Source: a virus. From it: a stretch of DNA of 64,000 bases. This document shows, piece after piece, positions 3,849-64,000 of the stretch. The stretch covers positions 37,702 through 101,701 of IMG/VR virus record IMGVR_UViG_3300045007_000107. One strand, written 5' to 3'. The notes under the pieces are model-generated. The model did not search any database, was not told the origin of the DNA, and saw only the letters and a list, made by a program, of their open reading frames with translations. Every line of letters begins with the position of its first letter. Position 1 is the first letter of the stretch. A program made the position numbers and the translations under genes.

Positions 3849-3868
3849 TGTAATACGTCGGTATTACA
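3849..3868. promoter_or_regulatory. Perfect inverted repeat, candidate operator
   Basis: TGTAATAC-GTCG-GTATTACA has two perfect 8-bp arms built from the octamer that is enriched at both window ends. It lies about 80 bases upstream of the gene at 3946 in an AT-rich intergenic stretch. A dimeric regulator or replication protein is a plausible binder. Confidence 0.65.
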
Positions 3869-3945: not shown

Positions 3946-4101
3946 ATGTATTACATCATCCTGCTTGTTACCGGTTTCTTCGCCGGGATCAACCTGTCTC
4001 GCACCTACATAGATGCACGAACTAGAGACCACGACGCGTTCGAGGCAGACATGCGGAACTTCCTGCTCTGCGTGCTCATCCTCACTGTCCTCGCTAAGTA
4101 A
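3946..4101 (+). CDS. 51-residue two-helix membrane protein
   Basis: ATG 3946 sits behind CCACGGAGC. An N-terminal hydrophobic helix (IILLVTGFFAGI) is followed by a charged middle (RTYIDARTRDHDAFEADM) and a second helix (FLLCVLILTVLA) ending in K. It belongs with the run of tiny membrane proteins at 4947-5933. Function unknown; superinfection exclusion or membrane remodelling would be guesses. Confidence 0.6.
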   Translation: MYYIILLVTGFFAGINLSRTYIDARTRDHDAFEADMRNFLLCVLILTVLAK

Positions 4102-17774: not shown

Positions 17775-17917
17775 TGTCCCCTGACGATCTCAACGACGTA
17801 CTGTCGGCCTACCGCGAAGCCCTGCTAGAGCACGGGCCGGACATGGGGATCAAGCCGAAGTACGTTGAAACCCTCGTGGCGCAACTCGGCGCCCGCATCC
17901 TGGGAGCACTCAAGTAA
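17774..17917 (+). CDS. 47-residue hypothetical protein
   Basis: ATG overlaps the glycosyltransferase stop and its stop overlaps the ParB-like start, so it is coupled on both sides. Helical and acidic (DDLNDVLSAYREALLEHGPD). No family. Its placement suggests a partner of the ParB-like protein or terminase. Confidence 0.6.
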   Translation: MSPDDLNDVLSAYREALLEHGPDMGIKPKYVETLVAQLGARILGALK

Positions 17918-18780
17918 TGGCCCTCGCTAAGAAGCTTCCTCCGAAGGTCGCGCCGAAGAAGCCGGCTCCGCTCAAGCGTTCGACCCTGGAAATTTTCGAC
18001 ATTCCGGTCGATGATCTGGTCGGCCACGAGGACAACCCGAACGAGCAGGACGAAGCAACCTTCGACCAGCTTGTCGAGGGCATCCGCGCGGACGGGTTCG
18101 ATGAGCCGATCCAAGTCGTTCCTATCGAGGGCGGCACGCACGCCGGCAAGTGGCAGATCTTCTCGGGTCACCACCGCGCCAAGGCTGCGAAAGTCCTCGG
18201 CCTCAAGGTCATCCCCGCTGTCGTCAAGAAGGGCTGGAACGAGGACAAGGTCAAGATCGAACTCGTGCGCCGGAACCGGCTGCGCGGCAACCTCAATTCC
18301 GAGAAGTTCACGAAGCTCTACAACGAACTCAAGACGCGTGGCTGGGACGAGTCCATGCTCAAGTTGCAGATGGGCTTCACAAAAGAGGACGCGTTCAAGA
18401 AGGTCTACAAGTCCATCGAAAAGGCGATGACGCCCTCGCAAAAGAAAAAGCTCGAAGAGAGCAAGGAGAGCATCAAGTCGGTGGACGGCCTTTCGTCCGT
18501 GCTCAACGACATCTTCAAGAACCATGGCTCCGACCTCGACCACGGCTTTGTCGTGTTCAACTTCGGGGGCAAGGAGATCCACTACATCGAGACCGACACC
18601 TCGCTCAACAAGCAGGTCAAAGCGCTCGAAGAGGAGTGCCGCAACAAGGGCATCACCCTGGCGGACGCCTTCAAGCACCTGCTGAACCGCCCGAACTTGA
18701 GCGGCGTGAAGAAGTCCGGTACAGTCCAAGCTCCCGCGAAGGTGAAGCCCAATGCTAAGACATCGTCGGCCGCTGCGTAA
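17917..18780 (+). CDS. ParB-like N-terminal-domain protein
   Basis: 287 residues. After a Lys/Pro N-terminus (KKLPPKVAPKKPAPLKRS), residues 28-120 follow the ParB/Srx fold: IPVDDLVGHEDNPNEQDEAT, then SGHHRAKAAKVLGLKVIPAVV (GHHR at about 83, equivalent to the GxRR/GERR CTP- or ATP-contacting box) and IELVRRNRLRGNLN. An HTH-like helix pair follows (LKLQMGFTKEDAFKKVY). Canonical ParB slides from parS sites. In phages, ParB-fold proteins often sit beside terminase. It is the best candidate for binding the dispersed palindrome. Confidence 0.75.
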   Translation: MALAKKLPPKVAPKKPAPLKRSTLEIFDIPVDDLVGHEDNPNEQDEATFDQLVEGIRADGFDEPIQVVPIEGGTHAGKWQIFSGHHRAKAAKVLGLKVIPAVVKKGWNEDKVKIELVRRNRLRGNLNSEKFTKLYNELKTRGWDESMLKLQMGFTKEDAFKKVYKSIEKAMTPSQKKKLEESKESIKSVDGLSSVLNDIFKNHGSDLDHGFVVFNFGGKEIHYIETDTSLNKQVKALEEECRNKGITLADAFKHLLNRPNLSGVKKSGTVQAPAKVKPNAKTSSAAA

Positions 18781-22375: not shown

Positions 22376-22947
22376 TGGAAGCCCTACAATCCATCATCGA
22401 TCCTGCCACGGGCTACAGTTTGGTGATATGGGCTGTCGCCTCTGCGCTGATAGTTATTCATGCAATCTGGAAGTTCGTCCGTAACTGTATGCTCGCGCGG
22501 CGGGAGCGGGCAAGGGAGGAAGAGGAGGTCCGCGTCCGCACCCGAAACCGGATGCGTCGGCAGCTAGAGGTAGAAAGCCTTGAGCGTGCGCTCGCTTCGG
22601 GGCCTTCGTCTGTGCATACAGGGATCGAACCTCCGCTAGACCCACCGTTAGGGACAAGTTGGGTCGATCCACGGACGGGCTACCTGTTCGTACACGTGCG
22701 TCCTCGCTTCTGGCGGTCTGTTTCGGGCCAAACCGAGGACTTCTACGACCGGCGCCCACCCGAAGGGTTCCCGAGAGTGAGCGTAGCCTCCGAACTAGCG
22801 CGCATCACCACAAGGCCCAAGCCCTTGCAGCCGGCTGCAAGCAAAGTCGAGGAACCGTTCTCGCTCAAGCGGCGAGTACGCATCAAAGCACCTACAACGC
22901 TGAAACGCAATGCGATACCCTTACGGAAACTTCGGATGCCCGACTAA
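22372..22947 (+). CDS. Single-pass membrane protein with LRKL C-terminus
   Basis: 191 residues. An N-terminal helix (SLVIWAVASALIVIHAIWKF) is followed by a basic coiled segment (ARRERAREEEEVRVRTRNRM) and a soluble tail. The C-terminus has palindrome-encoded LQPAAS (22825) and ends AIPLRKLRMPD. Coupled on both sides by stop/start overlaps. Unknown function. Confidence 0.65.
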   Translation: MMEALQSIIDPATGYSLVIWAVASALIVIHAIWKFVRNCMLARRERAREEEEVRVRTRNRMRRQLEVESLERALASGPSSVHTGIEPPLDPPLGTSWVDPRTGYLFVHVRPRFWRSVSGQTEDFYDRRPPEGFPRVSVASELARITTRPKPLQPAASKVEEPFSLKRRVRIKAPTTLKRNAIPLRKLRMPD

Positions 22948-58033: not shown

Positions 58034-58109
58034 TGCCGGATAGCTAAGTTGGTAAAGCAACGGTCTTTGGTACCGTCATCCGCAGGTTCGAATCCTGCTC
58101 CGGCAACCA
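58034..58109 (+). tRNA. trnQ: tRNA-Gln (TTG)
   Basis: 76 nt with acceptor TGCCGGA paired with TCCGGCA, an anticodon stem ACGGT/ACCGT with loop CTTTGGT giving anticodon TTG (decodes CAA), T-arm GCAGG-TTCGAAT-CCTGC, discriminator A and encoded CCA. CAA is the rare Gln codon in this GC-rich genome, so the tRNA may relieve a host shortage. Confidence 0.9.
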
Positions 58110-58115
58110 ATCTGG

Positions 58116-58190
58116 ATGGGCGTATTTCAGCGGTTAGAATGTCGGTCTCCAAAACCGAAGACGCGGGTTCGAGTCCCGCCGCCCGTGCCA
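58116..58190 (+). tRNA. trnW: tRNA-Trp (CCA)
   Basis: 75 nt with acceptor ATGGGCG paired with CGCCCGT (one G-U), anticodon stem TCGGT/ACCGA with loop CTCCAAA giving anticodon CCA, T-arm GCGGG-TTCGAGT-CCCGC, discriminator G and encoded CCA. Six bases after tRNA-Gln, so probably co-transcribed. Confidence 0.9.
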
Positions 58191-61988: not shown

Positions 61989-62015
61989 CTTGCAGCCGTC
62001 TGCAAGCGCGTAACC

Positions 62016-62835: not shown

Positions 62836-62861
62836 AGGCGGGATACACTCCCGCCTTTTTC
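62836..62861 (+). terminator. Intrinsic terminator
   Basis: AGGCGGGA-tacac-TCCCGCCT followed by TTTTTCG. Palindrome 62878 lies 17 bases beyond it. Confidence 0.85.
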
Positions 62862-62918
62862 GTACTTGACAGCCCTCTTGCAGCCGTCTGCAACTACTAC
62901 TTTGGAGGTACTACTACG

Positions 62919-62947
62919 TTGACAAAGAAACTACACTTGGGTTAAAC
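62919..62947 (+). promoter_or_regulatory. Promoter for the replication gene
   Basis: Consensus TTGACA (62919-62924), 17 bp, TTAAAC (62942-62947). Another TTGACA at 62866 lies close to palindrome 62878. The first gene of the replication unit starts at 62994. Confidence 0.7.
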
Positions 62948-62993
62948 TTAAGAGGTACTTCCCTATACTAATGATCCCTACCAAGGCGAAGTA

Positions 62994-63626
62994 ATGCCTT
63001 CGACTGCACCTGACTGGAAACAGACTTTCTCGGTCATGAGAGACGTTATGTTCGCTAACCGCATGTACATGGATCTCTACGAGCGTGAGACGGTCGCCTT
63101 TATCTTTGGGCGAACGCACCTCTACGGTAAAGAGTGGGAGAGCATCTCCCTGCGCCAGTTCATGCACGGCGTGCGTCGGATCGATGACGGAGCCTACATC
63201 GCCTCCCCCGTGGCTATGTCGCGAGGCAAGCTTCTCGAAAGCCTGCGACACCTCAAGGCGAAAGGATACATCGAAGTCCGCTACAGCGCCGGCTCCACGC
63301 TCTACCGTTTGACGGAGGATGTGAACCCGGAACACGCGATGCGCTACATGCAACGCCACCAGAAAAAGGAATTCGAGAGTATCTTCGGCCGCCTCCACAA
63401 GACCGAGATGCGGGACGCTGTAATACGGCAAGCTTGTAATACGGGACGTAATACACGTAATACGTGGTCCGAATACGAACCATCAAGTGGTTCGAATACG
63501 GTCCAAGACTTGGTTCGTATACGGCCCAATATAATAGTACCGATAGATAATAGGACTAATTCTAATAGTGCGGGTCGGAAGCCTCCCCGCAAGCCTTTAA
63601 GGAAACTCAGCTTAGGAAGAGTGTAA
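62994..63626 (+). CDS. Replication-initiator-like protein (lambda O type)
   Basis: 210 residues. The N-terminal 120 residues (SVMRDVMFANRMYMDLYERE, then SRGKLLESLRHLKAKGYIEV) have the winged-helix pattern of phage replication O / DnaT-like primosome proteins. The middle is an Asn/Thr-rich linker translated from internal iterons (CNTGRNTRNTWSEY). The C-terminus ends RKPLRKLSLGRV, the recurrent basic motif. As in lambda O, the origin would lie inside the gene that binds it. Confidence 0.7.
   Translation: MPSTAPDWKQTFSVMRDVMFANRMYMDLYERETVAFIFGRTHLYGKEWESISLRQFMHGVRRIDDGAYIASPVAMSRGKLLESLRHLKAKGYIEVRYSAGSTLYRLTEDVNPEHAMRYMQRHQKKEFESIFGRLHKTEMRDAVIRQACNTGRNTRNTWSEYEPSSGSNTVQDLVRIRPNIIVPIDNRTNSNSAGRKPPRKPLRKLSLGRV
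63419..63575. other. Candidate replication origin inside the initiator gene
   Basis: Four copies of GTAATAC (63420, 63436, 63448, 63457) are followed by GAATACG at 63471, CGAACCA-tcaag-TGGTTCG (63475-63493), GAATACGG at 63494 and GTATACGG at 63517. An AT-rich stretch (63527-63570) comes next. Two of the four include the full TGTAATAC octamer. Iterons, hairpin and AT-rich unwinding-like region inside an O-like gene mirror the lambda origin. Confidence 0.65.
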
Positions 63627-63630
63627 TACG

Positions 63631-64000
63631 ATGGGTATCGAAAACCTCAAACGCATCGCGGAGGAAGCAGCCCAAAAGGCGACTGCCCGGCGAACCGAGA
63701 AAAAGGAACGCCCCAACCCGACCGCTTGGCGGATGGCTTGGCAAGATGCGATGCAGGAGTTCTACCCGGAGGCCGTGGTCTCCTACACAACGAAGGACGC
63801 GAACAACCTCAAGCAAGCTGTCGCTCGCGGCATCCCCGTTGGCGAGGTTGCGGCACTCATCGAATGGGCCGTCAAGAATTGGGAGCTTGTCCGCCGCAAG
63901 ATATCGAACACCGACAAGCCGATTGGCCCGCCCGTCCCCGACATGCGGTACGTGGTCTATCAGATCAGCCGCATCCACACCGCATACCGACAGAACCGAG
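63631..64000 (+). CDS. Replication-region protein, 3' end beyond the window
   Basis: At least 123 residues from ATG 63631, preceded by GGAAGAGTGTAATACG, again with an octamer in the leader. It reads to the window edge without a stop. N-terminal basic helix (RIAEEAAQKATARRTEKKER), then NLKQAVARGIPVGEVAALIE. The place corresponds to a helicase loader (lambda P-like), but no family is recognised in the visible part. Confidence 0.6.
   Translation, partial: MGIENLKRIAEEAAQKATARRTEKKERPNPTAWRMAWQDAMQEFYPEAVVSYTTKDANNLKQAVARGIPVGEVAALIEWAVKNWELVRRKISNTDKPIGPPVPDMRYVVYQISRIHTAYRQNR

Follow-up and report, generated by a model that had tools for sequence, protein, structure and literature searches.

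A predicted lambda-like replication origin of conserved geometry at the domain junction of a split phage initiator

The window analysed here is a stretch of 64,000 nucleotides, positions 37702-101701 of the 101,701-bp viral record IMGVR_UViG_3300045007_000107. From anatomy and conservation we infer that a short region near its right end (63465-63569), which lies within the gene of a winged-helix protein, is very probably a theta-type origin, where dimers of the initiator would bind, the DNA would melt, the phage replisome would be loaded and replication would start. What is established is the anatomy of the region, its non-randomness, its conserved place and geometry in relatives, the gene order and the protein folds. 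A lambda-like origin in the initiator gene had been proposed in the first-pass annotation, and this is strongly supported by the anatomy, the replication operon, the match of the protein family to O-type initiators and the comparison with 37 + 5 relatives. The elements of the region are the following (window positions).

62994-63626, + strand: DNA-binding subunit of an O-type initiator, 210 amino acids (aa), with a winged helix (about residues 28-106), helices (112-149) and an iteron-encoded low-confidence (disordered) tail
63465-63482, no strand assigned: iteron 1, TGGTCCGAATACGAACCA, 7/9 dyad pairs
63488-63505, no strand assigned: iteron 2, TGGTTCGAATACGGTCCA, 6/9 dyad pairs, 23 bp from iteron 1
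63511-63528, no strand assigned: iteron 3, TGGTTCGTATACGGCCCA, 7/9 dyad pairs, 23 bp from iteron 2
63476-63494, no strand assigned: hairpin CGAACCA-TCAAG-TGGTTCG, formed by neighbouring halves of the first two iterons
63528-63569, no strand assigned: putative unwinding element, a 42-bp AT-rich tract (76% AT, 24% GC) whose coding strand is A-rich

The iterons are three 18-bp imperfect palindromes, TGGTYCGNATACGRNCCA, which occupy 63465-63528 inside the initiator coding sequence (open reading frame (ORF) 62994-63626), start at 63465, 63488 and 63511, and are thus spaced by 23 and 23 bp. The AT-rich tract abuts iteron 3 on its 3' side without a gap, and the 60-bp GC minimum of the linker falls at the 0.2 percentile within the surrounding 22 kb. 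When triple dyads with 23-bp spacing were scored across approximately 22 kb, the score peaked at 63465 (20; runner-up 18), and a search of all three pieces of the record found no further iteron sites with up to 2 mismatches. The tandem score of the gene was 16, compared with a mean of 6.6 in synonymous-codon shuffles, only 1 of 5000 of which reached 16; with the distance fixed at 23 bp, the top score among 2000 shuffles was 11. The three iteron copies fall in three different reading frames and are therefore repeats of the DNA, not of the protein. Repeats, a hairpin and an AT-rich tract had already been noted at 63419-63575, and all are present there. The CGAACCA hairpin does exist; it is formed where the right half of the first dyad faces the left half of the second. 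The earlier definition of the iterons as GTAATAC/GAATACG is to be replaced by the 18-bp dyads, GTAATAC being a genome-wide motif (see below).

Searches of IMG/VR made directly with the window proteins yielded no relatives. Relatives were drawn from IMG/VR and GenBank by PolA and DnaB profiles; 37 loci remained after redundancy was removed (DnaB identity under 80%), and the position of the best direct repeat at an offset of 18-26 bp was determined for each locus. In 19 of the 37 loci this repeat falls between the winged helix-turn-helix (wHTH) and the C-terminal parts of the initiator, as opposed to 0.77 expected. All 19 linker repeats have offsets of 21-24 bp (2, 7, 7 and 3 loci), and other offset ranges gave 4-5 loci. 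In a hold-out set, which was small because only five new loci passed the pipeline, the same placement was found in 4 of 5 loci (0.11 expected). The repeat period is a multiple of 3 in 5/19 of the linker repeats, whereas this is the case for 14/18 of the best repeats elsewhere in the same loci (Fisher p 0.003). The repeat units are mostly palindromes whose letters vary from phage to phage, for example AGGGTGTCTCTCACAGAGAC (L044), GGTGCAGAAGAGCACC (L028), GTCCGGAAAACCGGAC (L051) and TACCCCAATCGGATTGGG (L025). An AT tract follows 3' of the repeats, mostly within a few bases, in 22 of the 25 loci with repeats; it is A-rich on the coding strand in 34/37 loci (control 106/175). A shared motif within the AT tracts of the relatives was sought, and only mild enrichment of ACAGA-like words was detected.

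The AlphaFold2 model of the 210-aa protein contains a confident winged helix (pLDDT approximately 90-98 over residues 21-120) and helices up to residue 149, followed by the low-confidence tail encoded by the iterons. Of the 53 residues of this tail 8 are N, 5 are T and 6 are S. Taken alone, the protein gave wHTH matches, all of them sub-threshold. A search of PDB for the fold of the initiator returned generic winged helices only, and a PDB profile search by sequence was uninformative. In SM1, JP1 and others, larger proteins carry a homologue of this protein as their N-terminal part, and the assignment to the O type comes from this family: Phage_rep_O (PF04492) was matched by 7 of 18 aligned members, with a best value of 1.8e-5 and none shown above the curated cut-off, the O-like PHROG 678 was likewise matched by 7/18, and the family profile could be aligned to the N-terminal domain of lambda O (hhalign P 1.2e-4, probability 56%).

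The ends of the record share a 143-bp overlap with one mismatch. Because of this overlap the genome was read as circular, and the genes at the end of the window therefore carry on at record position 1 (L003). This applies to the gene downstream of the initiator:

63631-64000 and on to L003:376, + strand: second part of the initiator (200 aa), whose homologue in the fused relatives is their C-terminal domain

This second part is presumed to be the helicase-recruitment subunit. The iteron-encoded segment had been described as an Asn/Thr-rich linker between the domains of the initiator. It is indeed rich in Asn, Thr and Ser, but in the window protein it forms the C-terminal tail of the ORF, which ends at 63626; a separate ORF starting at 63631 encodes the partner domain. 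An interdomain linker is found in most relatives, where both parts are in one protein. The two parts are separate ORFs in 7 of the 37 loci, one of which (L042) is possibly a frameshift, and this distribution requires five changes on the PolA tree; the window, L016 and L025 group together as a single split clade with support (99/97). The iteron arrays of JP1 and L040 lie outside any ORF. Since the array keeps to the junction whether this codes for a linker, a tail or nothing, we argue that selection acts on the DNA.

The order of ORFs in the locus is initiator, second initiator part, a 180-aa protein (L003:376-918), DnaB, PolA and a primase-like ORF. When the L025 homologue of the 180-aa protein was modelled (pLDDT 96), DnaI (2w58), DnaC (6qel) and 3ecc were among the best matches, with TM scores of 0.68-0.72. 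A Walker A motif was present in none of the 28 members of this DnaC/DnaI-fold family. Judged by the model, the family would appear to be a pseudo-AAA+ helicase-loader candidate that lacks a P-loop.

Initiation at 63465-63569 could proceed as follows. The winged-helix protein (62994-63626) would bind each of the three 18-bp palindromes as a dimer, and initiators placed on palindromes two helical turns (23 bp) apart would stack on one face of the DNA. Together they would bend and wrap the DNA and thereby melt the adjoining 42-bp AT tract (63528-63569). The separate C-terminal part (63631 onward) would then recruit the DnaC/DnaI-fold protein and the phage DnaB to the opened strand, where the phage PolA and primase would extend.

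Several points weigh against the origin interpretation. The 210-aa protein of the window has no Pfam or PHROG match at E<=0.05. About one-third of the relatives have no clear tandem array at 18-48 bp; such arrays were not found in L009, L020, L029, L032, L036, L038, L049 and others, several of which have single palindromes. The GC-skew check suggested in the first-pass annotation was run and turned out to be uninformative: there is no inflection at 63465-63569, and the cumulative curve falls almost all round the genome. Finally, the wrapping, the binding as dimers and the role of the loader are suggested by analogy.

The same palindromes could also be operators, at which the winged-helix protein would act as a repressor, binding in the end of its own gene and controlling the downstream replication operon. 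The winged helix has a weak resemblance to MarR/GntR-type proteins in sequence and fold, the sites are palindromic, and there is a TATAAT at 63530. However, no promoter with an acceptable -35 was found at the dyads, the sole match of the scan lying 5' of the gene; what the AT tracts in the relatives share is A-richness and position, not a TATAAT element; and the family matches replication initiators. We regard an operator as an unlikely explanation of the region; autoregulation could exist alongside origin function. The transcription signals predicted upstream of the initiator gene are the following.

62836-62856, + strand: terminator-like hairpin and T run, which would end the upstream transcription unit; consensus match only, where chance would give about 2 in the region
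62919-62948, + strand: promoter-like TTGACA-18-TAAACT, 5' of the initiator gene; consensus match only, with 1.3 expected by chance in the region

Transcription of the replication operon from the 62919 site could cross the origin, as transcription from lambda pR does.

Replication might instead begin at the array at 2063-2298, with 63419-63575 being a secondary or vestigial site. A real tandem array of 18/36-bp units, GGAGTAACATGTTGT, does occupy approximately positions 2054-2298 of the window in a C-poor, G/T-rich stretch, GC is low nearby and the GC skew has a local peak. No recognisable replication gene was found among the neighbouring ORFs tested, and the units show no obvious dyad that an AT tract adjoins. 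The change in skew is local to the G/T-rich stretch, not genome-wide. These observations leave a start at 2063-2298 very improbable. The idea that the repeats are a by-product of coding for a low-complexity Asn/Thr-rich tail can practically be dismissed: the tail is rich in Asn, Thr and Ser and predicted to be disordered, but the idea is refuted by the frame test (three copies in three frames), synonymous shuffles fail to reproduce the repeats, and the arrays of JP1 and L040 are non-coding.

The GTAATAC motif, which had been taken for the iteron, was rejected as an origin-specific element, as it occurs in 39 copies in the record, about half of them within 36.2-41.7 kb. The form GTAATACG has 13 copies in the window compared with 1.1 expected. 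The motif is dense in a stretch of 5.4 kb, from L004:16278 to window position 3954, and again at 63420-63630, where it is represented by the following copies.

63420-63463, + strand: four GTAATAC copies (63420, 63436, 63448, 63457) of the genome-wide motif, which is also clustered here
63623-63630, + strand: fifth GTAATACG copy, which contains the stop codon of the initiator ORF

Some GTAATAC pairs make hairpins, for example at 3850-3867 of the window. The motif may be a binding site of the initiator protein or of another protein.

A different palindrome, CTTGCAGCCGTCTGCAAGC, is dispersed over the genome; its core, TGCAGN4CTGCA, is present in 61 copies in 101.7 kb (approximately 0.1 expected). 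The copies occur every 0.5-5 kb, within and between genes, for example at 2464-2479, 22825-22840, 61990-62005 and 62878-62893 of the window. The core was found 8 times in 18.6 kb of L016 and 9 times in 18.8 kb of L025, and it was absent from the sampled loci of more distant relatives. Stoperator-like sites or segregation sites are guesses as to its role. A ParB_N protein of 287 aa is encoded at 17917-18780 (E 2.6e-9). That ParB reads the dispersed palindrome is not supported: ParB_N proteins are also found in relatives that lack the sites. Adjacent genes for tRNA-Gln (ttg) and tRNA-Trp (cca) are located at 58034-58190.

On balance, it is probable that a large and deeply diverged group of mostly large phages shares an origin design defined by geometry only: where the DNA-binding part of the initiator meets the helicase-recruiting part, there are 2-4 palindromes with a spacing of 21-24 bp and then an A-rich tract. 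The letters of the iterons would drift together with the initiator, giving private replication specificities, the initiator would have been split repeatedly into two subunits, and the helicase would be loaded by a P-loop-less protein of DnaC fold. With such a geometric rule (phased palindromes at the initiator domain junction plus an A-rich tract) the origin becomes predictable in dozens of unrelated-looking genomes. The co-evolution of initiator and origin becomes testable, as does the question of whether a helicase loader without ATP-binding residues works.

Lambda-type origins are textbook knowledge. Dimers of lambda O bind inverted-repeat iterons and open an AT region of about 40 bp alongside (PMC5043065), and the lambda origin and the initiator gene coincide (PMC7466680). 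Lambda, used as a control, showed 18-bp iterons 20, 24 and 23 bp apart, followed by an AT-rich stretch (also PMC5043065). The window shares with the lambda ori/O gene and with Stx and other lambdoid phages the inverted-repeat iterons of 18-19 bp spaced by about 20-24 bp, which lie midway through the gene of an O-type initiator, 3' of the part for the DNA-binding domain, and are followed by an A-rich AT tract. In contrast to lambda, the iteron sequence is unrelated, there are three iterons instead of four or six, two ORFs share the coding of the initiator, DnaB and PolA are supplied by the phage itself, and the loader candidate has, according to the model, an AAA+ (DnaC/DnaI) fold. Iteron plasmids likewise have phased repeats and an AT-rich unwinding region, whereas here each repeat unit is a dyad located inside the initiator gene.

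A homologous order of initiator, small DnaC-fold protein, DnaB and PolA is found in Agrobacterium phage JP1, Rhodobacter phage RcTiptonus, Rhizobium phages L338C and RHph_I4, Pseudomonas phage SM1 (Samunavirus) and Aeromonas phage HJ05. No origin is annotated in the records of these six phages, and the paper on RcTiptonus mentions none; in the literature covered, outside which most subscription journals lie, no report of an origin was found for this group of phages of about 80-110 kb. The interval that separates the wHTH part from the C-terminal part clearly holds palindromic repeats and an AT tract in SM1, JP1 and HJ05; L338C and RHph_I4 have one inverted repeat there, and none was found in RcTiptonus. 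In these phages the iteron letters differ from those in the window and the initiator is fused, except in JP1, which has an independent split and an intergenic array. What is new is the extension of the lambda-type origin to a deep group of phages that encode DnaB and PolA themselves, in which the iteron sequence has wholly turned over under constant geometry, the initiator has been split repeatedly and the partner is a P-loop-less protein of DnaC fold.
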